This document shows positions 5,369 through 26,902 of a stretch of 64,000 bases of DNA, in pieces (within the stretch, counting starts at the first letter, position 1; each line of letters opens with the position of its first letter). Under the pieces are notes generated by a model. That model was not told the DNA's origin. It saw nothing but the letters and a program-made list of their open reading frames with translations, and did no database searches. The DNA comes from Myxococcales bacterium (lineage in GTDB: Bacteria > Myxococcota_A > Polyangia > Haliangiales > Haliangiaceae). The stretch is from NCBI GenBank assembly GCA_016720595.1, contig JADKKI010000073.1:23079-87078 (forward strand), written 5' to 3'. The translations under genes and the position numbers were made by a program.

Positions 5369-6592
5369 ATGTTCGCTCGCGCCCTCGCTTCCACGTTGAT
5401 CTCCGTCCTCGTCGCCTGCTCGAACCACGCCGCGGGTGACGATCCGGGCGGCGAGGGTCCGCCGGGACCGGAAGGTCCGCAGGGGCCCGCAGGTGCGCAG
5501 GGGCCGGTCGGTCCGCAGGGGCCGCCGGGTGAGGTCACCGTCCTCGATGGTGGGACGATCCAGGGGCCGCCTGGCCCGCAGGGCCCGACGGGCCCGACGG
5601 GTGCGGCTGGTCCGCAGGGCCCGGCCGGCGCCGACGGTGCTCAGGGTCCGCAAGGTCCGCAGGGACCGGCGGGGAGCATGGGGCCGGCAGGTGCGGCCGG
5701 GGCGGCGGGGGCGATGGGCATGACGGGGCCCGCGGGGCCGACGGGCGCACAGGGCGTCCCCGGATCGCAGGGCCCGGGCGGTGCGGTGACCGGCGAGGCC
5801 GCGGCGCAGTTCGCGGGCTTCACGAGCACGACGTACACGGGCGTCGCAGGCGGACGCGAGGTGATGCACGCGCGGTGCGCGGCCGCGTTCACCGGATCGC
5901 ACCTGTGTCACGTCGCCGAGTATCAGCTCGCGAACGCGGCGACCGTGCCGCCGGCGAGCGGTGCGTGGATCGATATGAGCGGCGGCGTCGAGGGCTACAA
6001 CGCGAACGTCACGGTCTCGAACGAGGTCGCGAGCACCGATCTCGGGCGCTACGCGGGCCAGCTCTACACGGGCAACTGCGACAACTGGACGACGGCGACG
6101 AGCAGTGGCAGCACCACGTTCGGCGAGACCATCAACCCGGCGACGCCGACCGCGGTGGTGTGCACGTCGTCCCACGCGCTCGCGTGTTGCTCGACGCCCT
6201 ACGTCGAGGGCTTCCGCGGCTTCACCACGGCGAGCGTCACCGGCGTTCGCCCGGGCGGTCGCGCCGAGATGCACCAGCTGTGCGGCGCGCAGTTCGCGGG
6301 CAGTCACATGTGCCACGTCGCCGAGTACCAGCGCGCGACGCCGACCGTGTCTCCGCCTGCCGCCGGCGCGTGGCTCGACATGAGTGGCTACCTCCGCTCC
6401 GGCAGCAGTGTCTCGAACGAGGTCGCGTCGCAGCACATGGGCCGCTACGCGGGGCAGCTCTACACCGGCAACTGCGACAACTGGACGGCCGCCACGAGCA
6501 GCGGCAGCACGACGTTCGGCGAGACGATCACGCAGGCAGGACCGACCGCGTCCGTCTGCACCAGCGCGCGCCCGATCGCCTGCTGCGAGTAG
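5369..6592 (+). CDS. Collagen-like lipoprotein with two C-terminal Cys-rich domains (paralog 1)
   Basis: A 407-residue exported protein. The signal peptide ends in VLVAC (lipobox). Residues about 27-135 are Gly-X-Y collagen repeats, rich in GPQGP and GPPGP, interrupted once by the stretch [12 protein letters not shown]. Behind them lie two tandem domains of about 120 residues sharing the pattern GSHx[28 protein letters not shown] and a terminal C...CC. I do not recognise the Cys-rich domain; six or more conserved Cys and an aromatic core suggest a disulfide-bonded globular head at the end of a trimeric collagen stalk. It is followed after 36 bp by a close paralog. Collagen stalk and head architecture suggests a surface adhesin or spacer, which is inference. 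Confidence 0.88.
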
Positions 6593-6628
6593 CCGCCGAG
6601 GAACCGCCGAGGAATCGCAGAGGAATCG

Positions 6629-7813
6629 ATGACGACCATGTACACGCTCGCTCGTTCGCTGTTCGTGCTCGGCTCGCTCGGGCTCGCGCTCGGCGCGTGC
6701 TCGAGCCATGCAGGCGGTGATGATCAAGCCGGCGTCGAAGGTCCGCCGGGCCCCGAGGGCCCTCGAGGTCCGCAGGGGCCGGCAGGTCCTCAGGGACCAC
6801 CGGGCGAGGTCACCGTGCTCGATGGCGGAACGATCCAGGGACCCCCAGGTCCGCAAGGCCCGGCCGGTCCGCAAGGCGCCGATGGTGCACAAGGTCCGCA
6901 GGGCATCCCGGGCACCGCAGGATCGATCGGTCCCACGGGCATGACCGGCCCGATGGGGATGACCGGATCGACGGGGCCCGCGGGGCCTGGAGGTCCGCAA
7001 GGCGTCGCCGGTGCGATGGGGCCAGGCGGGATGGTCACCGGCGAGGCGGCCGCGCAGTTCGCGGGCTTCACGAGCACCGCGATCACCGGCGATGGAGGTG
7101 GGCGCGAGGCGATGCATGCGCGGTGTGCCGCGGCCTTCGCCGGTGCGCACCTCTGCCACGTCTCCGAGTACATCCTCGCGAACTCCGCCACCGTGCCGCC
7201 CGCCGGCGGCGTGTGGATCGATTCGAGCGCCGGCATCGAGGCCTCGGCGTCGAGCTCGGCGCTGATCAACGGCACCGGCCACGTGCGCCTCGGCCGCTAC
7301 TCCGGTGCCTCGCAGGTCAACTGCGCCGGCTGGAACGCGGGCGCCGGCACGCTCGGCTACATCCTCACGATCGCCGGCGAGTCACAGGTTCAGTGCTCGT
7401 CGTCGCACACGCTCGCGTGCTGCACCACGCCGTACGCCGAGGGCTTCCGTGGCTTCACCACGGCCACCGTGACCGGCGCACGCCCCGGGGGCCGCGCCGA
7501 GATGCACCAGCTGTGCGGCGCGCAGTTCCCCGGCAGCCACCTCTGCCACTTCGCCGAGTACCAGCGCGCCACCCCGACCACGACCCCGCCCGCCGCGGGC
7601 GTGTGGATCGATTCGAGCGCGTACCTCCGCACGCAGGGCGACGCGTTCCCCGAGAACAACGCCGCCACCGGCGAGATGGGCCGCTATGCCGGCGGTTCGC
7701 AGCTCAACTGCTCGGCGTGGACCCAATCGGCATCGCTCGGGTACAGCCTCACGGGCAGCGGCATGGCGCAGGGCCAGTGCTCGGTGGCACACGCCCTCGC
7801 GTGCTGTGAGTAA
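6629..7813 (+). CDS. Collagen-like lipoprotein with two C-terminal Cys-rich domains (paralog 2)
   Basis: 394 residues; a tandem duplicate of the preceding gene. Signal peptide with lipobox LALGAC, then Gly-X-Y repeats (about residues 35-140) carrying the identical interruption [12 protein letters not shown], then two Cys-rich head domains ([10 protein letters not shown] and [11 protein letters not shown], terminal CC or CCE). The heads differ from paralog 1 mainly in the middle: NCDNWT becomes NCAGW or NCSAW, and the GSTTFGETI stretch is replaced. The stalk is nearly unchanged while the putative ligand face varies. Two possible starts, ATG 6629 and ATG 6638. Probably co-transcribed with paralog 1. 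Confidence 0.87.
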
Positions 7814-9065: not shown

Positions 9066-12000
9066 ATGACCGTCGAGACCGCTCCCGTCACCAGTGTGCC
9101 CGTGGACTTCGATCCGGTGCCGCCGCTCGCCGAACAGCTCGGCCTCGCGCGGGGCTCGATCGCCGCGGTGATCGCGCTCCTGGACGAGGGCAACACGGTC
9201 CCGTTCATCGCGCGCTATCGCAAGGAGCGCACCGGCGGTCTCGACGAGGTCCAGATCCGCGCGATCGACGAGCAGCGGACGTACCTGGTCGAGCTCGAGT
9301 CCCGCCGCGCCGCGATCCTCGCGTCCGTCGGCGAGCAGGGCAAGCTCACCCCCGAGCTCGAGGCCAAGCTCCGCGCCGCCACCGGCAAGAGCGAGCTCGA
9401 GGATCTCTACGCGCCCTATCGTCCGCGCCGCAAGACCCGCGCCTCGGTCGCCCGCGAGAAGGGCCTGGCCCCGCTCGCCGACAAGATCACCGCACAGGGC
9501 CCCGAGGGCGTGCCGCTCACCGAGGCCGCCGCGTTCGTCAACGCGGAGGCCGGCGTGGCCACCGCCGAAGAGGCGCTCGCGGGCGCCCGCGACATCGTCG
9601 CCGAGCAGATCGCCGATACCGCCGAGGTCCGCACCTGGGTCCGCAAGGAGTACGCAGAGTACGGCGAGCTGGTCTCCACCGTGGTGCCCGGCAAGAGCGA
9701 CGAGCCCACGAAGTTCGAGCAGTACTACCAGTTCGGCGAGGCCGTGAAGACGATCCCGTCGCACCGGTTCCTCGCGATCCGTCGCGGTGAGGCCGAGGGC
9801 GTGCTGCGCGCGCAGGTCGTGATCGATCCGAACCGCGTCGGCGTGGGGATCGAGCGGCTGGTCAAGCTCGACGTCCAGTCCCCGTGGGCGGAGCAGCTGC
9901 ACCTCTCGATCGCGGACGCGCTCAAGCGGCTGCTGTCGCCCAGCGTGGAGAACGATGTCCGCGCCGAGCTCAAGCTGCGCTCCGATCACGCCGCCGTCGA
10001 CATCTTCGCCGGCAACCTGCGCAACCTGATGCTGGCCTCGCCGCTCGGCAGCGCCGCCGTGATCGGCGTGGACCCGGGCCTCCGCACCGGCTGCAAGTGC
10101 GCCGCGATCGACGCCACCGGCAAGTTCCTCGGCACCGTCACCGTGTTCATCACGCAGGGCGACGCGCAGCTCACCAAGGCGAAGGAAGACTTCCTCGCGT
10201 TCGTGCAGAAGTTCGCTCCGCGCGCGATCGCCGTCGGCAACGGCACCGGCGGCCGCGAGGCCGAGGCGTTCGTCAAGAAGTGCCTCGGCGATGCCGGCCT
10301 CCGCGAAGGTCCGCAGGCGCCGTTCGTGGTGCAGGTCAACGAGGCTGGTGCCAGCGTGTACTCCGCCTCGGATCTCGCGCGCGAGGAGTTCCCCGAGCTC
10401 GACCTCACGATCCGCGGCGCGATCTCGATCGCGCGTCGGCTCCAGGATCCGCTCGCCGAGCTCGTCAAGATCGAGCCGAAATCGATCGGCGTCGGCCAGT
10501 ACCAGCACGACGTGCACCAGCCCCTGCTCGGCAAGAAGCTCGGCGCCGTCGTCGAGGACTGTGTCAACAAGGTCGGCGTCGAGCTCAACACCGCGAGCGC
10601 GCAGCTGCTCGGGTACGTCGCGGGCATCGGCCCGTCGCTGGCCAAGAAGATCGTGCTCCACCGCGATGCGCACGGCGCGTTCTCCGCGCGCGGCCAGCTG
10701 ATGGACATCTCCGGCCTCGGGCCCAAGGCGTTCGAGCAGGCCGCCGGCTTCCTCAAGATCCCGGGCGCCACGCACCCGCTCGATGCCTCCTCGGTCCACC
10801 CGGAGAGCTACACCATCGTCGAGAAGATGGCGGCGGACCTCGGGGTCGAGCTGCCGGCGCTGATCGGGAACCAGGAGCTGGTCGACAAGATCGATCTCTC
10901 GAAGTACGTCGAGGGCGAGGTCGGCCTGCCGACCCTGCACGACATCACCGCGGAGCTCGCGAAGCCGGGCCGTGATCCGCGCGCGGAGTTCGCGCCGCCG
11001 GCGTTCCGCGATGACGTGACCTCGATGGAGGATCTGAAGCCGGGGATGGTGCTCGAGGGCATCGTCACCAACGTCACGGCGTTCGGGGCGTTCGTCGACA
11101 TCGGCGTGCACAACGACGGCCTGGTCCACGTCTCGCAACTCGCCGAGCAGTTCGTGAAGGATCCGAGCGAGGTCGTGAAGGTCGGGCAGAAGCTGACCGT
11201 GCGCGTCCTCGAGGTCGACAGCACCCGCAAGCGCATCGCGCTGTCGGCGAAGCGCGGCGGTCAGCCGGCGCCGAAGCAGCAGCGCCAGGGCGGCGAAGGT
11301 CCGCACCAGCAGGGGCAGGGCCCGGGTCCGGGCCAGGGTCGTCGTGGCGGTCGCGGTCGCGGCGGTGGTGGCGGTGGCGGGCCGCGTCCCGAGGGACAGC
11401 CGCAACAGCAGCAGGGCCAGGGGCGGCGCGGTCCCCGCAACGATCAGCGTCCACGCGGCGAGCAGCCGTCGGGCGAGCAGGTGCACGCGCAGTCGCAGCA
11501 CCACGGCGATCAGCCCGCGGGCGAGCACGTGCAGCCACCGCATGCCGATCACGCGGCGGGCGAGCACGGTCAGCAACAGCCGCCGCACCAGTCGCCGCAC
11601 CAGCCGCCGCACCAGCCGAACGACCAGCACGGCGGCGAGCGCCGTCAGTGGCAGCCGCGCGGTCCGCAGCAGGGCGGCGCGCCGCAACATCAGGGTGCAC
11701 CGCAGGGCGATCGCGGTCCGCAGCAGCAGGGTGGTCCGCGCCAGGATCGTGGCCCGCGTCCCGATCGCGGTCCGCGTCCGGATCGCGGTCCGCAGCAGCA
11801 GGGTGGTCCGCGCGGTCCGCAGCAGCAAGGTGGCCCGCGGAGCGATCGCGGTCCGCGCCAGGGTGGTCCGCGTCAGGGCGACAACCGCAACTGGCAGCCG
11901 GGTCCGCCGCAGGGTCAGCAGGGCGACAACCGCAACTGGCAGCCGGGTCCGCCGCAGGGTCAGCAGGGCGACAATCGCAACTGGCAGGGTGGTCCGCCAC

Positions 12001-12251
12001 AGGGTCAGCAGGGCGACAACCGCAACTGGCAGGGCGGCCCGCCGCAGGGTCAGCAGGGCGACAACCGCAACTGGCAAGGACCGCGGAACGATCGCGGTCC
12101 GCGTCGCGATGATCGGCGCGACGATCGCGGTCCGCCGCGGTCGAGCGAGCCGCGCCGTGAGGGTCCGGCCCCCGAGAACTGGGGCGTCGGCGGGTTCAAG
12201 AACAACCCGTTCGCGAAGCTCGTCCCGGGCGCCGACAAGCCGAAGCGCTGA
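9066..12251 (+). CDS. tex: Tex-family RNA-binding transcription accessory protein with long disordered tail
   Basis: 1061 residues against about 770-780 for ordinary Tex. The core is complete: N-terminal helical domain (FIARYRKERTGGLDE), YqgF/RNase-H-like domain at about 331 (VIGVDPGLRTGCKCAAID), helix-hairpin-helix repeats at about 508-565 (YVAGIGPSLAKKI, ISGLGPKAFEQAAGF) and an S1 RNA-binding domain at about 656-731 (GIVTNVTAFGAFVDIGVH). From about 735 the protein becomes a 300-residue low-complexity tail of Gln, Gly, Arg, Pro and His with RGG-like and NRNWQ repeats. Such tails commonly bind RNA or drive condensation, so an added RNA-binding arm is a reasonable inference. ATG 9066 fits the family N-terminus. 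Confidence 0.93.
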   Translation: MTVETAPVTSVPVDFDPVPPLAEQLGLARGSIAAVIALLDEGNTVPFIARYRKERTGGLDEVQIRAIDEQRTYLVELESRRAAILASVGEQGKLTPELEAKLRAATGKSELEDLYAPYRPRRKTRASVAREKGLAPLADKITAQGPEGVPLTEAAAFVNAEAGVATAEEALAGARDIVAEQIADTAEVRTWVRKEYAEYGELVSTVVPGKSDEPTKFEQYYQFGEAVKTIPSHRFLAIRRGEAEGVLRAQVVIDPNRVGVGIERLVKLDVQSPWAEQLHLSIADALKRLLSPSVENDVRAELKLRSDHAAVDIFAGNLRNLMLASPLGSAAVIGVDPGLRTGCKCAAIDATGKFLGTVTVFITQGDAQLTKAKEDFLAFVQKFAPRAIAVGNGTGGREAEAFVKKCLGDAGLREGPQAPFVVQVNEAGASVYSASDLAREEFPELDLTIRGAISIARRLQDPLAELVKIEPKSIGVGQYQHDVHQPLLGKKLGAVVEDCVNKVGVELNTASAQLLGYVAGIGPSLAKKIVLHRDAHGAFSARGQLMDISGLGPKAFEQAAGFLKIPGATHPLDASSVHPESYTIVEKMAADLGVELPALIGNQELVDKIDLSKYVEGEVGLPTLHDITAELAKPGRDPRAEFAPPAFRDDVTSMEDLKPGMVLEGIVTNVTAFGAFVDIGVHNDGLVHVSQLAEQFVKDPSEVVKVGQKLTVRVLEVDSTRKRIALSAKRGGQPAPKQQRQGGEGPHQQGQGPGPGQGRRGGRGRGGGGGGGPRPEGQPQQQQGQGRRGPRNDQRPRGEQPSGEQVHAQSQHHGDQPAGEHVQPPHADHAAGEHGQQQPPHQSPHQPPHQPNDQHGGERRQWQPRGPQQGGAPQHQGAPQGDRGPQQQGGPRQDRGPRPDRGPRPDRGPQQQGGPRGPQQQGGPRSDRGPRQGGPRQGDNRNWQPGPPQGQQGDNRNWQPGPPQGQQGDNRNWQGGPPQGQQGDNRNWQGGPPQGQQGDNRNWQGPRNDRGPRRDDRRDDRGPPRSSEPRREGPAPENWGVGGFKNNPFAKLVPGADKPKR
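11877..12076 (+). repeat. 45-bp tandem repeat in the tex tail (four full units plus partial)
   Basis: Units begin at 11877, 11922, 11967 and 12012, with a partial fifth at 12057. Each encodes the 15-residue GDNRNWQ(P/G)GPPQGQQ. In-frame and nearly identical, so copy number can change without breaking the gene. Confidence 0.9.
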
Positions 12252-16517: not shown

Positions 16518-18599
16518 ATGGAGCCCGACGCCGTTCCCCGCGCCCTGGGCGAGTTTCGCATCGAGGCGATCCTCGGCGAAGGCGGTAGCGGCATCGTTTA
16601 CGACGCCACATGGGGTCCCCGCCGGGTCGCGCTGAAGGTCCTCCACCCGAACCTGGCGCACACGGAGCGCGTGCGCGCGCAGTTCCTTGTCGAGGCGCAA
16701 CGGCTGCAGGCGATCACGCATCCTGCGGTCGTCAAGGTGCTCGCCGTGGGAGAGCTCCCCGATGGCCGCCCGTATCTCGCGATGGAGCGGCTCGATGGCG
16801 AGACGCTCGCCCAGGTGCTGGCGCGTGGCCCTCTCACGCTCCCCCACGCCCTCGAGCTGTTCGGCGAGCTGTGCGCCGCGGTCGGGACCCTGCACGAGCA
16901 GGGCATGATCCACCGCGACCTCAAGCCCGAGAACGTGTTCATCGTCGCCAGCAAGCACGCGGTGCTGCTCGATTTCGGGATCGCCAAGGAGCTCGCCGCA
17001 CCGGCCTCGACGACGACCATGGACGGCGGAGTCCGCGGCACCCCGGCGTACATGGCGCCCGAGCGGTTCTTCGGCCAGCCGGCTTCGATCGCCACCGATC
17101 TCTACGAGCTCGCCGTCACGCTGTACGCGATGCTCGCGGGGCGATTGCCGTGGGACGACCTCGCGGATCCCGAGGCGCGGCTGTCCCCGCGTCCGCTCGT
17201 CGAGCTCGCCTCCGTCCCCGAGGAGCTCGACGTCGAGATCCGGCGTGCGCTGTCCACGCGCGCGCAGAACCGGCCGGTCACCGCCGGCGCGCTCGAGGCC
17301 GCGGTGCGGGCCGCGGCGGGCAGCGCCGCCCCGACCCAGCCGTCGGAGACCGCGCGGATGCGCCCCGCGTCGGGCGAAGGCCCGTCGCCGAAACCGACGG
17401 TCACGGCCGAGACCAAGCCCTGGTTCGCCGAGCGCCAGAACACCACGGACCGCGGCAAGACCCCGCTCGCGTGGGCGCCCACGGCGCAGCAGCAGCCGGT
17501 GCCTCCTCCCGCGGCGAAGCGCTGGCCGTGGATCGCCGGCGCGGTCGCGATCGCGATGCTCACCGGTGGCGTGGTGCTGTGGCGGATGCGCGGCGATGAC
17601 GCAACCGTCGGCGCGCCGATCTCCTCCTCGGTGACCACGCCGTCCGCACCGCACTCCACCGCGGCGGCCGCCACCCACTCGTTGCCTCCCGCCGAAGATC
17701 CGTGGGGCGCCGGCAAACCACCACCGCCGCCGCCGTCCGCGCTGCCGACCTCCGGGCCGGCGGTGTCCGTCGCGATCGCCCAGGCCGAGGTCGCGAAGGC
17801 GATCCCGCACCTGCCCTCGGACACGTCGTTTCTCGCCGCGGGCCTCGTCGGGCACCTGCAGCGCGACGAGCGGTTCGCGACGATGTTCGACAAGCTCGGC
17901 AAGCACCCGCAGGCCCAGATGATGATGGGGCTCCTGCCGCCGTGCCTGAAGACCTTGATGGCGGGCTCGGAGTGGTTCGTGTTCGGCTCGACGGGCTTCC
18001 TCGCCGACAAGCAAGGCACGTTGATCGTCCGCGGTCGCTGGCAGCGCAAGGACGTCGAGGCGTGCTTCGCGGGCCAGAGCCACGAGCTCGCGATGACCGA
18101 TGGCGTGAAGCTGTTGCAGCTCCCCGAGATCGGCTGGCTCGACTTCCTCGACGCCAACACCGTCTACATCAGCGTGCGGCAGGATCTCGCGGCGGCGCAG
18201 GTCCACGACAACGTGAAGAAGGGGCAGGGGCTGACCCCGCGGGCGCGCGCGCTGCTGGCGACGTTGCCCGCGCAGCGCGCGCTGACGTTCGTCGTCGACG
18301 GCACCGGCGGCGTGGAGTGGCCCAGCGACATGCTGCCGAAAGGCAGCGACGCCGCGGCGTTCGTGCAGGTCTCGGACTGGGGCATCGAGTTCGACGTCGC
18401 GCTGGACGTCAAGACCGAGGCCGCCGCCAAGGCGCTCGAGGCCAAGGCCAAGCCGCAGCTCGAGCCCCTGATCCCGTCGGGCTCCGATTCCGTGGGCAAG
18501 CTGACGGTCGTGCGCAAGCAGGCCACGGTGAAGATCGGCGGGAAGCTGTCGACGTTGATGTTGGGGATCGTCTCGTCGTCGATCGCCTCGCTCCCGTAG
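16518..18599 (+). CDS. Transmembrane Ser/Thr protein kinase with unrecognised C-terminal outer domain
   Basis: 693 residues. Kinase domain (about 10-270): ILGEGGSGIVYDA glycine loop, VALKVL, MIHRDLKPENVFI, LLDFGIAKE, RGTPAYMAPERFF. A disordered Pro/Thr linker leads to one membrane helix at about 336-357 (WIAGAVAIAMLTGGVVLW), then a Pro-rich spacer and a folded domain of about 280 residues (LPSDTSFLAAGLVGHL, WFVFGSTGFLADKQGTLIV, ALTFVVDGTGGVEWPSDM). I do not recognise this outer domain; it looks like a periplasmic sensor or ligand-binding module. Followed after 13 bp by udk. Confidence 0.88.
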   Translation: MEPDAVPRALGEFRIEAILGEGGSGIVYDATWGPRRVALKVLHPNLAHTERVRAQFLVEAQRLQAITHPAVVKVLAVGELPDGRPYLAMERLDGETLAQVLARGPLTLPHALELFGELCAAVGTLHEQGMIHRDLKPENVFIVASKHAVLLDFGIAKELAAPASTTTMDGGVRGTPAYMAPERFFGQPASIATDLYELAVTLYAMLAGRLPWDDLADPEARLSPRPLVELASVPEELDVEIRRALSTRAQNRPVTAGALEAAVRAAAGSAAPTQPSETARMRPASGEGPSPKPTVTAETKPWFAERQNTTDRGKTPLAWAPTAQQQPVPPPAAKRWPWIAGAVAIAMLTGGVVLWRMRGDDATVGAPISSSVTTPSAPHSTAAAATHSLPPAEDPWGAGKPPPPPPSALPTSGPAVSVAIAQAEVAKAIPHLPSDTSFLAAGLVGHLQRDERFATMFDKLGKHPQAQMMMGLLPPCLKTLMAGSEWFVFGSTGFLADKQGTLIVRGRWQRKDVEACFAGQSHELAMTDGVKLLQLPEIGWLDFLDANTVYISVRQDLAAAQVHDNVKKGQGLTPRARALLATLPAQRALTFVVDGTGGVEWPSDMLPKGSDAAAFVQVSDWGIEFDVALDVKTEAAAKALEAKAKPQLEPLIPSGSDSVGKLTVVRKQATVKIGGKLSTLMLGIVSSSIASLP

Positions 18600-18612
18600 T
18601 ACAACGCGCTCG

Positions 18613-19245
18613 ATGTCCTCCCCCACGCGTCCACTCGTCGTCGGGATCGCTGGGGGCACTGGCTCCGGCAAGACCACGGTCGCCCACAAGCTCGCGGCCT
18701 CGATGCCCGGCCGAGCGGTCACGATCGAGCACGACGCCTACTACCGCGACCAAGCGCACCTCTCGTTCGAGGAGCGCGTGAAGATCAACTACGACCACCC
18801 CTCGTCGCTCGAGAGTGATCTGCTGGCGAGCCACCTGCGCACGCTCCGCGAGGGCCAGGCCGTGGACATCCCGATCTACGACTTCGCCACGCACACGCGC
18901 CGCACCGAGACCCGCCACATCGAGGCGGCGCGCGTGGTGATCGTCGAGGGCATCCTGGTGTTCACCGAGCCCGCGCTGCGCGAGCAGATGGACATCAAGA
19001 TCTTCGTCGATACCGATTCGGACATCCGGCTGATCCGGCGGATCCGGCGCGACCTCGAGCAGCGCGGCCGCACGTTCCAGTCCGTGCGCGACCAGTACTA
19101 TCAGACGGTGCGGCCGATGCACATCGAGCACGTCGAGCCGTCCAAGCGCTGGGCCGACCTGATCGTCCCCGAAGGCGGCGACAACAAGGTCGCGCTCGAC
19201 GTGCTCCTCGGGCAGCTCGGGCGCGTCGCGTTCGGCCGGGACTGA
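18613..19245 (+). CDS. udk: Uridine kinase
   Basis: 210 residues, the normal length. ATP- or GTP-dependent phosphorylation of uridine and cytidine to UMP and CMP in pyrimidine salvage, cytosolic. P-loop GIAGGTGSGKTTVAHK (about 10-25), nucleoside-site motif EHDAYYRD, NYDHPSSLESDLL, YDFATHTRR, EGILVFTEPALR, and the lid-like RRIRRDLEQRGR. It starts 13 bp after the kinase, suggesting co-transcription. The portion from codon 26 through 40 bp past the stop is duplicated near 23.6-24.2 kb, on the other side of a foreign-looking island. This left copy is the intact one. Confidence 0.93.
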   Translation: MSSPTRPLVVGIAGGTGSGKTTVAHKLAASMPGRAVTIEHDAYYRDQAHLSFEERVKINYDHPSSLESDLLASHLRTLREGQAVDIPIYDFATHTRRTETRHIEAARVVIVEGILVFTEPALREQMDIKIFVDTDSDIRLIRRIRRDLEQRGRTFQSVRDQYYQTVRPMHIEHVEPSKRWADLIVPEGGDNKVALDVLLGQLGRVAFGRD

Positions 19246-19285
19246 GGCGGTGTGTTCTCGCTCGGGCGGCGCTCGGGCCGCGCGC
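18688..19285. repeat. Left copy of the udk direct repeat (598 bp)
   Basis: From codon 26 of udk to 40 bp past its stop. Matches 23638-24231 in the same orientation at about 97% identity by my reading (roughly 18 substitutions and two 2-bp deletions in the right copy). Homology begins at aagctcgc and ends at ggccgcgcgc; sequences outside are unrelated. Confidence 0.9.
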
Positions 19286-19408
19286 AGCATTTCGCGGCAC
19301 TCCAGACGTGACCTGACTAGCGCAGCACAATCCATGGCGTTGCGTCGCCGCCGCATCGCGTGCGACTAGCGCGAACGACGCGATTGGTGGCGCCGTCGCT
19401 GGCGACAA

Positions 19409-21124
19409 CTACCAGAACTTGAGGAACCAGGCTTCAGGTCGAAATGGATCCGGGCTGAAGTTTCGGGTGCCAAGGACTCCAGTGGATATCTGCGAAAGTG
19501 GCGAGTTGTAGATGTCGCCGGTTCCAACCCAGGTGTTCGTGCCAGGAGGCAGCTTGTAAGAATAGATAGCGTTGTTTGCGCTCGTCTGTGCCAGGCGAAA
19601 TGTAGAGTCGGTTCCCACCCACACGATGCTCGGAGTATCCATCAGCACGATTCCCTGTGTGTAAGTAGTCGACACTGCAAACTGTCCGGATGCCCCCACG
19701 CCTCCCCATGTCCAGGTCAGGACAGAGTTAGCGTCAATTCCGGAATACGCAATTATGCACCCACCTGGGAGCCCGACACACGCAATCGATGGCGCGTAGT
19801 AGGATGAAGCCGCGAGCAATGTCGTGAATGGCAGTGTGGAACTGCCGGTCGCCGGAACCGTGATGATCATCACTCGATTGTCATTTCGAAGGTATCCAAT
19901 GAGGAATGAGTCGGACCAACCATCGTAGGTCACGGTTAACCCATACTGTCTAGTATATTCGGCTGTTAGGCAGGTTTCGGTACTGAATGTGAATCCGTGG
20001 TTTGTTGATCGTCGATAGCAGATGGTCCCGTTTTCGTTCGTGTAGTAGCTGCCTCCAATCGACCTCTCATAGACAACCATGGTCTCTGGCACGACACTGG
20101 AATCGGGCTTAGATGCGATAGCTGGTGGACGGCCGAGCAGGTCTCCGCTCGCCCAGCCTTGCTGTCCTTGGAATCCACCAATGTACTGCGCTGTTCCATA
20201 GGTGCTGCCTGCGCCGCCATTGCTTGGGCTAGTCCCTCCTTGAACCCACGAGAGGACGCGAATCGAAGACACCTGTGACAATGACCCCATTCGAAAAAGT
20301 GGGGTAGCTGAGGTTGTGTTTGTCGCCCGAGAAGGGGTGCGCCAAGAGGTTCCTGTAGCCATTCTAGTCTTGAGGATCTGTCCACTGCTGGACCGAACAC
20401 CATAGCGTCTCTGTGCGATTTCCATGTCCCAGTTGCTCAGTCTGCGAGCTCCACCCTTCATTACCGACTGCTGTCCAATATCCTCGCAGTCGGTTCCGGC
20501 CGGCAGTGTCGGATGATCCATATTATAGATGACGTGCCCAAATTCGTGAACGAGTGCTCCGACGAGATCAATGCATCCTGGGCAAAATGGACTTGATTCG
20601 ACCACCTGCCAAACTGCTTGAGTGCAGGAACTTGGATTTGAAGGAGGATGATAGAACTTGTTGACAACGAGGAACCCCCGACGCCAGGAACTGGGAAACT
20701 GCGCGAAGAATTCTGGATAGGTGAAGGCCGGACCAGCCGCACAGGTTGGTGGATTTGTCAGCGGACTCGTCCTGTCGCCACTGATAACGACGGCACCATC
20801 AATGGCGAGAAGCGATGTCACGCCTCGATAGCGCAGCTTGATGTTCGTTCCGCCAGATTCATTCCAGATGTATAGAGCACGAGTCACCGCCGTGCCGAAA
20901 TCAGCCTGCGAAAGGTTGGTAGCCAGAAGTGGATCCGCCGAGTTCACGTTGGTGATCCAGACGTCGACTCTGGCCTTGGCCGGAAACCAGGTGCCATTGT
21001 TGAACAACTTACATGTATTGAGAAGGAGCGCGGATGCCGGCTGCACAGTCAGCACACAGAGAATGAAAGCGACAGCCGCCATGATCCGAGCGGAGCGAGC
21101 ACGCAATCTCCTCATGGTGGTCAT
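19409..21124 (-). CDS. Secreted metzincin-like zinc metalloprotease
   Basis: 571 residues. Sec signal peptide (MAAVAFILCVLTVQPASA). The N-terminal catalytic domain (to about 240) has an extended zinc motif VHEFGHVIYNMDHP: HExxH is intact, the metzincin Gly at the eighth position is Tyr, and Asp then His occupy positions where the third ligand is expected. NTCKLFNNGTWFPAKARV resembles the start of matrixin-like domains, and several Cys pairs suggest disulfides. The C-terminal 300 residues form repeated beta-strand blocks (VVYERS, YNSPLSQISTG) of a propeller-like kind. Its ATG overlaps the TGA of the lipoprotein gene upstream (ATGA). AT-richer than the chromosome, indicating horizontal origin. 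Confidence 0.72.
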   Translation of the reverse strand: MTTMRRLRARSARIMAAVAFILCVLTVQPASALLLNTCKLFNNGTWFPAKARVDVWITNVNSADPLLATNLSQADFGTAVTRALYIWNESGGTNIKLRYRGVTSLLAIDGAVVISGDRTSPLTNPPTCAAGPAFTYPEFFAQFPSSWRRGFLVVNKFYHPPSNPSSCTQAVWQVVESSPFCPGCIDLVGALVHEFGHVIYNMDHPTLPAGTDCEDIGQQSVMKGGARRLSNWDMEIAQRRYGVRSSSGQILKTRMATGTSWRTPSRATNTTSATPLFRMGSLSQVSSIRVLSWVQGGTSPSNGGAGSTYGTAQYIGGFQGQQGWASGDLLGRPPAIASKPDSSVVPETMVVYERSIGGSYYTNENGTICYRRSTNHGFTFSTETCLTAEYTRQYGLTVTYDGWSDSFLIGYLRNDNRVMIITVPATGSSTLPFTTLLAASSYYAPSIACVGLPGGCIIAYSGIDANSVLTWTWGGVGASGQFAVSTTYTQGIVLMDTPSIVWVGTDSTFRLAQTSANNAIYSYKLPPGTNTWVGTGDIYNSPLSQISTGVLGTRNFSPDPFRPEAWFLKFW

Positions 21125-21756
21125 GGCGCCCCCTCGACAGGCGAGAGAGTCAGTAGCTGTTGAATCTCAGCGATGGAGGTATCGACCGACTGTAGGCGAA
21201 ACCCACCATGGTCATCGACGGGGGCAGCGATGAGAAGTTGGTCGGCGTTGGGTCCGACAAAGAACGCAACATAGGTGCCACCTACTTCGAGCCGTGGCGA
21301 GTCTGCAGCAATGACAACTGCTCCACTAAGTTCGCCGCCCGAAAGCTCGATAGTCTCTGATGCACGCCCACGATAGTTTTGAACGATATAAAGTGTCGCA
21401 GTTGTTCCGATGAACGGTGCCCGATCTATTACATGGCCGATGAGCCGTGTACATCTCACGTGGGCGATTGCGATTGTGTGCAACGTCCACGCATCTAGGA
21501 TGTCGGACCGAGGCGGAGGAACAGGGTCAGCTCCGAGATCCACGGCCGCCTGCGCAACACTGCGGCCAACAAATGGCTCCACAAGAGCCGCATCCGCGGG
21601 AGGATCGACCTGTGCGGCCGGAGCATCCGTTGCCGCATCGGATGGCAGTGGCGCAGCGTGCACGCTGAACTCGGTTGTCGTCGAATCACCCTCGCATGCC
21701 GTCAATGCGAACGACACAACCACAAGCAACACTCCGCTCACCTTCGCATTCCCCAT
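21121..21756 (-). CDS. Lipoprotein of unknown function, coupled to the metalloprotease
   Basis: 211 residues. MGNAKVSGVLLVVVSFALTAC is a lipoprotein signal with lipobox LTAC, then an Ala/Asp/Pro linker to about residue 60. The folded part (LHTIAIAHVRCTRLIGHVI, TATLYIVQNYRG, LEVGGTYVAFFVGP) reads as a small beta domain of about 130 residues. The second half resembles proteins that measure or cap a transported product, but I do not recognise the family. It overlaps the protease start by 4 nt, so it may be that protease's membrane partner or propeptide-like chaperone. No Shine-Dalgarno or -10 box near the start. Confidence 0.7.
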   Translation of the reverse strand: MGNAKVSGVLLVVVSFALTACEGDSTTTEFSVHAAPLPSDAATDAPAAQVDPPADAALVEPFVGRSVAQAAVDLGADPVPPPRSDILDAWTLHTIAIAHVRCTRLIGHVIDRAPFIGTTATLYIVQNYRGRASETIELSGGELSGAVVIAADSPRLEVGGTYVAFFVGPNADQLLIAAPVDDHGGFRLQSVDTSIAEIQQLLTLSPVEGAP

Positions 21757-21862
21757 GGCTGCGACCCCGACGTCAATCTCGCTGCAAAATACGTCGAGGT
21801 CCAGCTAAATCGCCGCATCCCGTAGCGGCGGACTTGCACGGATGAGCTGAGAAATCGGACGG

Positions 21863-21883
21863 GGTGCCGCAATATGCGGCACC
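21863..21883. promoter_or_regulatory. 21-bp inverted repeat, hairpin or operator
   Basis: GGTGCCGCA and its exact complement TGCGGCACC separated by ATA. It could be a regulator operator or a terminator remnant without a T tract; the sequence alone does not decide. Confidence 0.4.
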
Positions 21884-22077
21884 AGCTTCGATGCGAGGAG
21901 GCTAGTCGCTTGGTCGCCCACAAACACAATGGCACGCCACTGTGGCCCGGGGCTGGCGTGATCAGGTTGAAAGGTGGATGAGTTACAGCTGTTCGCGACG
22001 TTCGTGACCTGTACCGACCTCCACTATGACGTGTCAGAAAAGGCAGCTATTGAGCACGAAGCGAAGCCACGACTGGA

Positions 22078-22083
22078 TATAAT
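22078..22083 (+). promoter_or_regulatory. Consensus -10 TATAAT upstream of the membrane protein
   Basis: TATAAT ends 8 nt before ATG 22092. No -35 at the ideal distance is obvious. It marks 22092, not the later GTG at 22184, as the original start. Confidence 0.55.
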
Positions 22084-22091
22084 TGTCCGGC

Positions 22092-23545
22092 ATGCATCGC
22101 GTGTGGCGTCTAGATCTCGCGGTGATGCTCGCAATCGTCATCGCCGGCTGCGTGATCACGATCGCCTGCGGGAGCGCATTGGCGTGAACCAGGGCGAGGG
22201 CTGGGATGGACAGGCCTACGCTGCGTGGGCTCGAGATTTTCCGGAGGCGGTTGTCGAGACCGGGGTGACGGAATTCCAGAGCGAACGCGTCCTGCCGTCG
22301 GCACTGGTGTACTACGCGCTGAGCGCGGTGGGCTGCCCCCATACCTCCGGCAACGTGATCGCTGGGTTTCAAGTCCTGGATGCTCTCGCGCTGACCGTCG
22401 AGGCCGTGTTGTTGATGGGTATCTCGCTCGTGCTCGGTTGGTCGCGCACGTTGACGTGGGTCGCGTTCGTTGCGACTTTTCTGTCCTTCGCGAATGCGCG
22501 CGAGGCTCTCTACTATCCGACAATGACGGATCCGACCGCATCTGCGCTCGCGATGGGGACGGTCTGGGCATACGTCGCTCGGCGACCCGTCGCACAATGG
22601 GGCATCGCGTTGGCGAGCGCTTTCACGTGGCCAGCCCTCGTCCCTTTCGGGCTGGCGGCACTGATCTTGCCGCGCACCGTGAAGCCTCTCCCTTCGACGA
22701 CTGGACGTTGGCACCGTTTCCTTGCGCTAGGCGTGGCTCTCAGCGTGGCCGTATTCGTGGTGGCGTGGTTCATCTCGGTGCTCGCGAACCCCATCCAGAT
22801 CGCTCGGTGGCTCGATCGAGCGCACCACGACCTTTACCCCATCACGATCGCCAGTATTGTCATCCCGACGGCGCTCGCCGCGTACGTCGTAGCGCGACAG
22901 GAGACCACCTGGAGCTTGCGCGCCTATCTGCGGGACGCCGGTTGGCGCCGAACGACCGTGGCACTCTTGGCCGCAGCCTCGATTGTAGGAGCGCGCGAAC
23001 TCTGGCACGCGCGCGTCGGCATTCAGGGCGTTGGGACCGGTTGGCGCGAACTCCGCCTATACTATGTAGCCAGCGCGGTGCTCGGCCCGCTTTGGAGCCT
23101 GGTTCATCAGGTAACATACTTCGGTCCCATCGTTATCGTCGCGATCGGCGGCTGGACACGCATTGCGGGTACGGCTGCGCGATGGGGCCCTGGTGCTGTA
23201 CTCGGTCTCACGATGATGGTGTTTTCGTCTGTGAGTTCCGATGCACGCCATTTGCTACATATGGTGCCGCTACTCACTGTCCTTGCCGTTGCCTCAACTG
23301 CGTCGTGGTGGACACCTGGTCGCGCAGTTGTGCTTGCGGGCGTCTCACTCGCATGGTCGAAGCTGTGGCTCAGGATCGGATATACGACGATTCATAACTC
23401 GCTATCCTGGCCGGATCAGCGCTTCTTCATGCAACACGGACCGTGGGCAACCGACTCGACGTTTCTCGCACATCTCGCTGCAGGAATCGCAACCGCGCTC
23501 CTCTTGTGGCTGCTGCTCCGCCGGCCCGCGCCTCGGACTGAGTAG
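22092..23545 (+). CDS. Multi-pass membrane protein, GT-C-like, with N-terminal frameshift
   Basis: About ten hydrophobic segments in 453 residues from GTG 22184, including VLLMGISLVLGWS and VLAGVSLAWSKLW. Just after the expected first helix stands GEGWDGQAYAAWARDF, the acidic loop typical of GT-C glycosyltransferases, so a lipid-linked sugar transferase is possible. From ATG 22092 another frame encodes a helix (MHRVWRLDLAVMLAIVIAGC) that ends at a TGA overlapping GTG 22184. The two pieces together make a normal first helix plus loop, so a one-base indel near 22180 has probably split the gene. Alternatively the GTGA overlap gives coupled translation of a tiny leader. No partner gene is seen. 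Confidence 0.65.
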
Positions 23546-23637
23546 CGACGGTGGAGTGGTGCTGAGCAGCGTCGAGGCGTTCCGGAACGCGGCATATGGG
23601 CGCGCGTAGCTCGTATGGTGGGCAGAGCGGTTCGCTG

Positions 23638-24191
23638 AAGCTCGCTGCCTCGATGCCCGGCCGAGCGGTCACGATCGAGCACGACGCCTACTACCGCGAC
23701 CAAGCGCACCTCTCGTTCGAGGAGCGCGTGAAGATCAACTACGACCACCCCTCGTCGCTCGAGAGTGATCTGCTGGCGAGCCACCTGCGCACGCTGCGCG
23801 AGGGCCAGGCCGTGGACCTCCCGATCTACGACTTCGCCACGCAAACGCGCCGCACCGAGACGCGCCACATCGAGGCGGCGCGTGGTGATCGTCGAGGGCA
23901 TCCTGGTGTTCACTGACCGCGCTGCGCGAGCAGATGGACATCAAGACCTTCGTCGATCCCGATTCGGACATCCGACTGATCCGGCGGATCCGGCGCGACC
24001 TCGAGCAGCGCGGCCGCAGCTTCCAGTCGGTGCGCGACCAGTACTACGCGACGGTGCGGCCGATGCACATCGAGTACGTCGAGCCGTCCAAGCGCTGGGC
24101 CGACCTGATCGTCCCCGAGGGTGGCGACAACAAGGTCGCGCTCGACGTGCTCCTCGGGCAGCTCGGGCGCGTCGCGTTCGGCCGGGACTGA
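23638..24191 (+). pseudogene. udk: 5'-truncated, frameshifted udk copy
   Basis: Corresponds to codons 26-210 of the intact udk at 18613. It lacks the start and the ATP-binding P-loop. A 2-bp deletion (gcgcgcgtggtg reads gcgcgtggtg near 23880) and a second 2-bp deletion near 23913 break the frame; the last 85 codons are open again from 23934. Several substitutions change residues (QT to AT, EHV to EYV), so it came from a diverged allele or has decayed. It cannot make a working kinase. Confidence 0.9.
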
Positions 24192-24231
24192 GGCGGTGTG
24201 TTCTCGCTCGGGCGGCGCTCGGGCCGCGCGC
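23638..24231. repeat. Right copy of the udk direct repeat (594 bp)
   Basis: Matches 18688-19285 including 40 bp of sequence after the stop codon. The 92 bp from 23546 to 23637 between the membrane protein and this copy hold no recognisable feature. Confidence 0.9.
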
Positions 24232-24293
24232 TGTCACGGCCTGTGACCGGCAGGCGCTGTCCTCGCACGGCGCCGCGCGCGAGCCTGGAGCAC

Positions 24294-24908
24294 ATGACGC
24301 GCGTGTGGATGGTGACCGTGCTCGGGATCGTGATGGCGAGTGGGTGCTATGGCGGCCAGGAGTTCGAGTGGGAGGCGCGGGCGGTGATCGCCGTCGAACC
24401 GCAGGCGGTACCCGCGAGCGCGATCGCCGCGCAGCCGCGCTGGCTCTCGGTCCGGACCCTCGATGCGGATGTGGTGTACCCGCTCCGGATCGAGGGCGAT
24501 CAGGTGATCCTCGACAGCGCCTATGATGGCGCCGCGTTCCCTGTGAGCTACGACCCGTTCGACGCCGCCACCGCCACACGCCCGCGGCCCGGGTCGCTCG
24601 CGATCGAGCTCGCGGCGCCGTTCCCTCGACCGCCGAACGACCAGGCGCCGGGCGAGCTGTCGTTCACCGCGGACTTCGAGATCTCGGTGCTCGGGGATGG
24701 CGCCCCGGTGCGGATCCCCGTGCGCCTCGTCCCCCGCCTCGATCCGTGCGCGTACCAGTGGATCGATCCCGCGACGCCGGTGGTCCCGATCCCCGCGAAC
24801 GCGACAACCCAGGGCGCACCACTCGTGCAGGAGCCGACGAAGATCGTGGTGCCGCCGTTCGCGATCCGCGTGTTCGTTCAGGCCGCGTGCAGCGAGAGCA
24901 TCGGCTGA
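24294..24908 (+). CDS. Lipoprotein of unknown function
   Basis: 204 residues. MTRVWMVTVLGIVMASGC is a lipoprotein signal (lipobox ASGC). The mature part is beta-rich with Pro-rich turns (WLSVRTLDADVVYPLRIEG, LSFTADFEISVLGDG, IPVRLVPRLDPC, CSESIG) and two Cys near the end that may pair. I do not recognise the family. The ATG has a GGAG five nt upstream. The gene sits just outside the right udk repeat and uses GC-rich chromosomal codons, so it belongs to the host side of the junction. Convergent with the quinone reductase gene, 8 bp apart. Confidence 0.75.
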   Translation: MTRVWMVTVLGIVMASGCYGGQEFEWEARAVIAVEPQAVPASAIAAQPRWLSVRTLDADVVYPLRIEGDQVILDSAYDGAAFPVSYDPFDAATATRPRPGSLAIELAAPFPRPPNDQAPGELSFTADFEISVLGDGAPVRIPVRLVPRLDPCAYQWIDPATPVVPIPANATTQGAPLVQEPTKIVVPPFAIRVFVQAACSESIG

Positions 24909-24916
24909 GCTCGCTC

Positions 24917-25906
24917 TCAGACCACGAGGATGCCCGCACCGGTCGTGGTGCGTGACTCGAGATCGCGATGCGCCTGCGCCGCCTCCGCGAGCGGGTAGCG
25001 GCGCTCCACGGCGATCGTCATCCCCGCGGCCACCTGCGCGAACAGCTCGCTCGCCATCTGCTGCACCACCTCGATCGAGGTGAGGTGCGTGTGGAGGGTG
25101 GGCCGCGTGACGTACAGCGAGCCCTTCGCGGCGAGCTGGCCGAGCGAGATCGGTGGCACGGGGCCCGAGGCGTTGCCGAAGCTGACCATCAAGCCGAACG
25201 GTGCGAGGCAATCGAGCGAGCGCTCCCAGGTGTCCTTGCCCACCGAATCGAAGACCGCCTTCACCCGCGCGCCGGAGGTCAGCTCGCGGACGCGCGCCAC
25301 CACATCCTCGGTCCGGTAGTTGATCGCGTGCGCGGCACCATGGGCGAGGGCGAGCGCGCACTTCTCGTCGGTGCCCGCGGTGGCGATCAGCCGGAGCCCG
25401 AGCGAGCGCGCCCACTGGCAGGCGATCAGCCCCACGCCGCCGGCCGCCGCATGCCACACGAGCGCATCGCCCGCTGCGAGCTCCGCGCGCGTGCGCCGCA
25501 GCAGGTACTGCACGGTCAGGCCCTTGAGGAGCATCGCGGCGCCGGTCGCGAAGTCGATCGAGGCAGGCAGCTTGACCACGGGGAGCGCGGGGACCACGCG
25601 CGCGTCGGCGTAGCTGCCCGTGGTCTTCGACGTGTACGCGACGCGATCGCCGACCGCGAGGTGCGTGACCCCAGGGCCGATCGCCTCGATCACGCCCGCG
25701 GCCTCGGTGCCGAGCACCGCGGGGAGTGGCACCGGATAGAGGCCCGAGCGGTGATACGTGTCGAGGAAGTTGAGGCCGATCGCGTGGTGCCGGACCCGGA
25801 CCTCGCCGGGGCCGGGCTCACCGATCGGGAGCTCCACGAGCTGCATGACCTCCGGTCCGCCGGTCCGTGCGATCTGGATGGCCCTCGTGACGGTGGTGAC
25901 TGTCAT
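24917..25906 (-). CDS. qor: NADPH:quinone reductase (zeta-crystallin/Qor family)
   Basis: 329 residues, the family length. A zinc-free medium-chain dehydrogenase that reduces quinones with NADPH, cytosolic. The catalytic fold includes NFLDTYHRSGLYP and LPAVLGTEAAGVIEAIG; the nucleotide-binding motif is HAAAGGVGLIACQWA; LGLRLIATAGTDEKC and VFDSVGKDTWE follow in the usual order. The Qor hallmark YTSKTTGSYADARVV is present and zinc-binding Cys clusters are absent. ATG 25906 is preceded by GAGATCACC and, 15 nt upstream, TACGGT (25922-25927). Divergent from the epimerase gene over 45 bp. Confidence 0.9.
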   Translation of the reverse strand: MTVTTVTRAIQIARTGGPEVMQLVELPIGEPGPGEVRVRHHAIGLNFLDTYHRSGLYPVPLPAVLGTEAAGVIEAIGPGVTHLAVGDRVAYTSKTTGSYADARVVPALPVVKLPASIDFATGAAMLLKGLTVQYLLRRTRAELAAGDALVWHAAAGGVGLIACQWARSLGLRLIATAGTDEKCALALAHGAAHAINYRTEDVVARVRELTSGARVKAVFDSVGKDTWERSLDCLAPFGLMVSFGNASGPVPPISLGQLAAKGSLYVTRPTLHTHLTSIEVVQQMASELFAQVAAGMTIAVERRYPLAEAAQAHRDLESRTTTGAGILVV

Positions 25907-25939
25907 GGTGATCTCACGCGGACCGTAGCACCGCGCGTG

Positions 25940-25945
25940 TACAGT
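25940..25945 (+). promoter_or_regulatory. -10-like TACAGT 6 nt before the epimerase start
   Basis: TACAGT followed by only GCCGAC before ATG 25952, which would place the transcript start at or next to the start codon. Confidence 0.5.
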
Positions 25946-25951
25946 GCCGAC

Positions 25952-26902
25952 ATGGCCAGTTCGTCTTCCTCGCTCGCGGTCGTCACCGGTGGTGCCGGCT
26001 TCATCGGCTCGCACACCGTCGATGCGCTGCTCGCCGCGGGCTATCGCGTCTGCGTGCTCGATGACTTCCGCACTGGCAAGCGCGCGAACCTCGCGCAGCA
26101 CGCCGGCAGCGATCGGCTCGACATCGTCATGTGCGACGTCTCGCACGGCATCTTCGCCGCGCTCGCGCCGATCACCGCGAAGCACGGCCCGGTGGAGCGC
26201 ATCGTCCATCTGGCCGCGCAGGTCTCGGTGGTCGCCTCGGTCGCGAACCCGCTCGTCGACATGCAGGTCAACTACGGCGGCACGCTGCACGTGCTCGAGT
26301 ACGCGCGCGCACACGCCGTGAAGAAGGTGGCGTTCGCCTCCTCAGCCGCCGTCTACGGTGATGTCACCGAGATGCCCGTCCGCGAGGACCTGCCGACCCG
26401 GCCGGTCTCGCCCTACGGGATCCACAAGCTCGCCTCCGAGCTCGCGCTCGACTACTACGGGAGCGTGCACGGTGTGGCCACCACGGCGCTGCGGTTCTTC
26501 AACGTCTATGGGCCGCGTCAAGATCCGACGAGCCCGTACTCCGGCGTGATCTCGATCTTCGCGGATCGCGCACGCGCGGGACGCACGCTCACGATCTTCG
26601 GCGATGGCCAGCAGACCCGCGACTTCGTCTACGTCGGCGATGTCGTGCGCGCGCTGGTCGCCGCGGTGGGCGATGGCAACGATCGCCTGGTCGCGAACGT
26701 CGGCACCGGCAGCGAGATCACCGTGCTCGAGCTGGCGCGGACGGTGGTGGAGCTGTGCGGCAAGGGCTCGACGATCGAGCACGCGCCCACGCGCGGCGGA
26801 GAGATCCTGAAGTCACGCGCGCGCGTCGATCTGCTTCGCGATCGGCTCGGCGTGGTGGCGCAGACCAAGCTCGTGGATGGCCTGCGCGCGACGCTCGCCT
26901 GA
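25952..26902 (+). CDS. NAD-dependent sugar-nucleotide epimerase/dehydratase (GalE-like)
   Basis: 316 residues of the extended short-chain dehydrogenase family, acting on UDP- or dTDP-sugars. VVTGGAGFIGSHTVD is the NAD-binding loop, ASSAAVYGD holds the catalytic Ser, SPYGIHKLASE the Tyr-x-x-x-Lys pair, and FFNVYGPRQDP, DGQQTRDFVYVGDVV and NVGTGSEITVLEL follow as in UDP-glucose 4-epimerases. The exact sugar cannot be read from sequence. ATG 25952 is favoured by the TACAGT box six nt upstream. Convergent with the rhodanese-like gene, 3 bp apart. Confidence 0.9.
   Translation: MASSSSSLAVVTGGAGFIGSHTVDALLAAGYRVCVLDDFRTGKRANLAQHAGSDRLDIVMCDVSHGIFAALAPITAKHGPVERIVHLAAQVSVVASVANPLVDMQVNYGGTLHVLEYARAHAVKKVAFASSAAVYGDVTEMPVREDLPTRPVSPYGIHKLASELALDYYGSVHGVATTALRFFNVYGPRQDPTSPYSGVISIFADRARAGRTLTIFGDGQQTRDFVYVGDVVRALVAAVGDGNDRLVANVGTGSEITVLELARTVVELCGKGSTIEHAPTRGGEILKSRARVDLLRDRLGVVAQTKLVDGLRATLA

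Follow-up and report, generated by a model that had tools for sequence, protein, structure and literature searches.

How did a block of accessory genes come to lie between two copies of a uridine kinase gene in the genome of a Myxococcales bacterium? The window, i.e., the whole stretch of DNA analysed here, comprises 64,000 nucleotides and contains an intact udk gene (18613..19245, plus strand), which encodes a uridine kinase of 210 amino acids (Pfam PRK, 3.7e-42). A repeat scan of positions 17000-26000 of the window, combined with alignment, revealed a direct repeat at this gene. The left copy runs from codon 26 of udk to 40 bp past the stop codon (18688..19285, plus strand), and the right copy (23638..24231, plus strand) corresponds to udk minus codons 1-25 and carries two 2-nt deletions. 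The copies, 598 bp on the left and 594 bp on the right, have the same orientation and are about 97% identical, with 18 substitutions in addition to the two deletions; the 40 bp after the udk stop codon belong to the repeat and are identical in both. Identical stretches of 149 and 109 bp occur in the repeat, and the differences are moderately clustered (p ~0.018 for two long clean stretches, whose lengths were chosen after looking); the 5' part differs by four amino-acid changes, five silent changes and the two deletions. The product of the intact udk is one residue apart from P0003, its nearest relative among 120 listed database proteins. Codons 1-25, which are missing from the right copy, contain the P-loop, a motif recognised by eye. 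Since it lacks these codons and is frameshifted, the right copy should not make a kinase and is, as judged from its sequence, dead. A preliminary description of this DNA had reported a udk fragment duplicated as direct repeats of about 97% identity, each followed by the same 40 bp, with an intact gene on the left and a 5'-truncated, frameshifted copy on the right; all of this was borne out, and the edges of the repeat could be confirmed to the base.

Between the two copies lies an inserted segment of 4,352 bp (19286..23637), whose proteins are unmatched in all 26 related udk loci as fetched. Its GC content is 58.9%, compared to 70.3% for the window once the island and the right copy are set aside (about 70% for the window), and the lowest value among 1,019 overlapping stretches of 4,352 bp outside the island is 0.680. 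The earlier statement that about 4.35 kb of AT-richer DNA separates the copies is thus accurate. The term "foreign-looking", which had been applied to this segment, fits its composition; however, for two of the three cargo genes, relatives exist elsewhere in genomes belonging to the family or order of genome G001, which harbours the best-scoring udk relative (locus L001). The functions of the cargo genes are putative and were read from motifs and weak profile matches. The largest gene (19409..21124, minus strand) encodes an HExxH zinc peptidase-like protein of 571 amino acids, which appears by eye to be secreted. Pfam and NCBIfam gave no family for this protein, and its profile matched metzincin active sites with low significance (best E 0.0009); an alignment of seven sequences, its own included, shows no variation at H193, E194 and H197. 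Relatives were found in three of 35 genomes of the order, and one other relative besides the protein itself was present among 7,995 scored database candidates. Directly preceding the peptidase gene, transcribed in the same direction and overlapping its start, is a small hypothetical gene taken from the list of open reading frames (21121..21756, minus strand), the product of which is lipoprotein-like by eye and had no relative in the 35 genomes of the order, in a search run without a positive control. The third gene (22092..23545, plus strand) faces the opposite way and encodes a membrane protein, multi-pass by eye. Its N-terminal helix and the remainder are encoded in different frames that meet near position 22170, whereas a single frame encodes both parts in L111, L112, L114 and L115; the gene is therefore probably broken, or the sequence contains an error at this site. 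Relatives of the membrane protein occur in four of 30 genomes of G001's family, and 55 database proteins, its own included, reached E <=0.001 among 7,999 scored candidates, none of them of known function. A match of this protein's profile to anti-CRISPR chains (best E 0.009, profile positions 3-55) was rejected as chance. The GC contents of the three genes are 54.6, 58.6 and 63.1%, and from these differing values the inserted segment may be composite.

The flanks of the two copies indicate where the inserted DNA has been added. A serine/threonine protein kinase gene (16518..18599, plus strand; Pfam Pkinase, 4.7e-36) is the native left neighbour of udk; it adjoins udk in several relatives, and the order of the left neighbours up to this gene is conserved in several related loci. 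The nearest udk loci come from metagenome-assembled genomes (MAGs) labelled Kofleriaceae, Myxococcales or Deltaproteobacteria. On the other side, the alignment of L001 with the right copy runs 16 bp past the shared 40 bp, to position 24247 of the window, which places the native 3' flank of udk at 24192..24247 (plus strand). The gene at 24198-24908 has a 33% relative in L001 at the corresponding place after udk, and the next gene (24917..25897, minus strand), a quinone oxidoreductase-like gene named by eye, is found after udk in several relatives and is the native right neighbour. For L007, which is as close to the window's udk in protein as L001, the DNA alignment stops at the stop codon, and for L004, about as close in protein, it extends at most a few bases further. 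The DNA to the right of the dead copy is thus most likely the native 3' flank of udk, for which the base-level evidence comes from L001 and the gene order agrees. If the right-hand DNA is udk's own 3' flank, the 3' neighbour of the left copy is the newcomer, and with native flanks on the outer sides of both copies, about 5 kb would have been added between them.

Related genomes were used to survey the site without the insert. In 30 genomes of G001's family, udk matches were found in 27 and none in three; an orthologous udk (E 4.9e-82 or better) is present in 26 of these genomes, and the 27th match (G010) was weak and was left out. With one locus counted per genome (n=26) and a threshold of E 1e-8 for the island proteins, udk is matched once in each of the loci as fetched, and none of them contains a match to the island proteins. 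Downstream DNA of at least 4 kb is available in 19 of the loci; the other seven have less and constitute weaker evidence. The oxidoreductase gene, the epimerase gene of the window's right flank, or both lie within 2.5 kb after udk in 13 of the 26 loci, and in two of the surveyed loci (L006 and L014) DNA comparison, too, puts the window's right flank after udk. The remaining loci end early or carry other genes after udk, and in L138 the epimerase gene is located on the opposite side of udk. Two udk copies without the island in relatives, or an island that aligns to contiguous host DNA, had been named beforehand as the outcomes that would contradict an insertion; the single udk match and the lack of any island-protein match in 26 of 26 loci show neither. 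A look for further islands beside udk had also been suggested; udk as a recurrent target gained no support, as a protein search detected no second udk piece in the 26 loci. At least 256 of 377 genomes of the phylum have a udk DNA match, a count that is based on two scored candidates per genome and is uninformative on partial duplicates. A literature search found no paper on udk as an island or attachment site.

No mobility function was recognised in the parts of the island that were scanned. Profile scans of its three genes and seven other open reading frames, with some small frames outside the scan, detected no integrase, transposase or recombinase, in line with the earlier remark that no integrase is visible. 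None of the longest 25 of 29 inverted-repeat pairs (at least 20 nt) joins the ends of the island. The island DNA had no match to plasmids and phages, the peptidase-like and membrane proteins had no relative in viral contigs and plasmids, and a comparison of the island proteins with PHROGs gave weak matches alone (best E 0.01, function unknown). The preliminary description had also considered that a transposition function might be missing; nothing was found to speak for this idea, neither a mobility gene nor a match to a plasmid, phage or viral contig.

The new point of this analysis is the mosaic nature of the dead copy. Within a tract of the right copy at 24006..24122 (plus strand; limits set after looking), identity comparison places the sequence nearer to udk from several other lineages than to its counterpart on the left: it is 92.3% identical to the left copy versus 97.4% to L017 and 95.7% to L001. 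Counted with one locus per genome (34 loci, from which eight repeats of a genome were left out) and among relatives that are not mutually independent, 23 of 26 relatives resemble the right copy more than the left in this tract, with the reverse in L005, L008 and L012. For the 5' part, 23 of the 26 are nearer to the left copy, two being reversed and one a tie. At the protein level, P0030, one of the 120 listed proteins, matches the right copy exactly over the final 76 residues, whereas the final 85 residues do not differ at all among the left copy and the five proteins nearest to it (P0003-P0007). In its 5' part, the right copy has S64, Q82 and A105, which are common to the left copy and P0003 and absent from P0004-P0007; this part is therefore of the window's own lineage. 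It is also altered at H94, I130 and T134, positions that are invariant in the 120 listed proteins. Beyond position 24122, the right copy once more shows no difference from the left, even in the non-coding tail, and because of this return to own-lineage sequence the tract reads as a replaced patch and not as the product of one crossover. The simplest explanation would be that a short patch was replaced by DNA of another lineage, either during or after the insertion; the match to other lineages' udk implies that homologous DNA from such lineages has recombined at this locus. For the nearest relatives, this reading draws on protein records without genome context, and a mixed assembly could mimic such a tract. 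A reading of codons 163-164 as derived in the left copy only was dropped, since the five nearest proteins share the residues of that copy. A udk protein of another lineage, P0018, has Q164 like the window's left copy, and its 5' part is by eye nearer to L001, which has A164; this pattern hints at an exchange of short udk segments between lineages. Short foreign tracts adjoining own sequence are also characteristic of mosaics formed by natural transformation, for which transfers from less than 100 bp are reported (PMC13344027). DNA uptake by this organism is putative; a literature search on Kofleriaceae and natural transformation found no paper.

The best available explanation for the anatomy of the locus is the single crossover that the preliminary description had proposed, and we consider its chance of being correct to be about even. 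The incoming DNA, either a fragment of a close relative's genome or a small circle, would have contained the last 555 bp of the udk coding sequence and the following 40 bp joined to the three accessory genes. This fragment, once circularised, would have undergone one recombination with the resident udk (Campbell insertion), thereby producing a complete udk next to the native 5' flank, then the accessory genes, and next to the native 3' flank a 5'-truncated udk that would subsequently have decayed. As in a Campbell insertion, the homologous segment is directly repeated at both ends of the insert, the left copy has the native 5' flank and the right copy the native 3' flank (at base level in L001), and the site is free of the insert in relatives. 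A comparable outcome is known from Escherichia coli, into which a cut, non-replicating plasmid was introduced by conjugation: of 60 selected clones, 56 yielded a PCR product of the kind that a partial duplication of the homologous gene should give, and the duplications in 14 sequenced clones spanned 109-950 bp (PMC3240628). The authors attribute these products to a circle that lacked some of the homology and integrated by a single crossover, and they regard linearisation, partial degradation and recircularisation as a likelier origin of this circle than an earlier deletion (PMC3240628). The udk locus resembles these clones in having the insert inside a partial gene duplication with one complete and one truncated copy, and its duplication falls within their size range; it differs in being natural, in the divergence of about 3% between the copies, in the lack of a plasmid match and in its mosaic dead copy, and the circle is one that we infer. 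No genome with both the udk fragment and the island genes was found as a source, and a literature search on Campbell-type insertion, partial duplication, transformation and direct repeats found no paper. The one comparison able to separate this route from break repair, discussed below, is a search for a single point at which one allele switches to the other; with 17 hand-scored events polarised against 13 relatives, it was not significant in a permutation test (p = 0.14). At a cut placed after inspection of the data, Fisher splits yielded 0.04, and 0.008 when the members of an adjacent triplet were scored as three separate events.

The claim of a Campbell integration is strengthened by the native 3' flank to the right of the truncated copy and by the empty sites; however, a long duplication at a break gives the same anatomy. 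Break repair is the main rival to the single crossover, and sequence cannot separate the two; we regard it as a serious but rather unlikely alternative. Two breaks in udk, staggered by about 600 bp, would have been filled in and the 4.35 kb captured by end joining or template switching, so that the repeat would be a very long target duplication for which homology is not needed. Provided that both copies started out identical, their differences in the 5' part fit later decay, and L011, another related locus, has an unrelated insertion beside udk with a perfect 51-bp duplication of host DNA. A duplication of 600 bp, however, seems long for this route, and break repair by itself leaves the udk tract from another lineage unexplained. 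Alternatively, linear DNA of a relative could have been integrated by homology-facilitated illegitimate recombination, one of its ends being homologous and the other joined illegitimately within udk; such an entry would fit recombination with relatives' DNA. Such events likewise combine homology on one side with the capture of foreign DNA beside the homologous gene, and one natural donor junction would suffice; known products, however, generally show a deletion (PMC3240628), whereas the host udk is duplicated here, and we consider this route improbable.

A similarly low probability is assigned to an assembly artefact, in which the locus would be a chimera or a free circle with a udk fragment would have been threaded into the chromosome by the assembler. 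The window's own proteins come from one contig of 87,078 bases, which may be a metagenome contig, and the repeat holds identical stretches of 149 and 109 bp; yet the copies were kept apart despite 18 differing bases and two deletions, and both native flanks are in the right order. A free circle, if this view were true, would still be a real finding. Integrative elements exist that enter the 3' part of a gene and restore it. A site-specific element of this type, bringing a spare udk 3' end, could have entered at about 18688 and restored the gene, the right copy being the displaced host end. Indeed, the left copy is complete with a displaced fragment on the far side, udk stays intact, and the 8-bp match AAGCTCGC opens the repeat at both edges; but AAGCTCGC is present four times in the window, the three genes and seven other frames scanned contain no integrase or recombinase, the duplicated stretch covers nearly the whole gene, and none of the 26 related loci has a second udk piece in the protein search, which makes such an element quite improbable. 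Least credible is the idea of an integrase-less Kofleriaceae circle that uses the udk 3' segment as a homology hook and moves in and out by host recombination while udk is kept working, the mosaic dead copy being a scar of repeated exchange.

The observation made in the preliminary description is correct, and its interpretation is the best available one, although not proven. The presence of three accessory genes after udk looks like accidental DNA capture by ordinary recombination and not like a new mobile element. The locus would be a clean natural example of gene capture by homologous recombination alone, with no mobility gene, and its mosaic dead copy suggests that DNA of other lineages recombines at udk. 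This is a known outcome in a natural setting, and no new kind of element is revealed.

Further repeats and insertions were noted in the loci compared. Among the gaps that were characterised, the only other insertion noted directly after udk is that of L011, a locus from another MAG: the segment at 1522-2810 is unrelated to the island and carries REP-like repeats recognised by eye as well as a transposase gene of IS200 type, whose Y1_Tnp match (E 7.9e-4) falls short of the curated cut-off. A perfect 51-bp direct repeat of the 3' end of the neighbouring oxidoreductase gene flanks this insertion, at 1528-1578 and 2760-2810. Elements of the IS200/IS605 family are said to make no larger target duplications (PMC2817692), and the 51-bp duplication is therefore odd. 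L006, a repeat-rich locus, contains at 6170-6218 a stretch of 49 bp that is 84% identical to the 3' part of udk (10565-10612) and is located about 4 kb upstream of that gene. The window itself has a tandem repeat with a 45-bp period at 11829-12098 and diverged internal direct repeats of 134-300 nt at 5590-7630.
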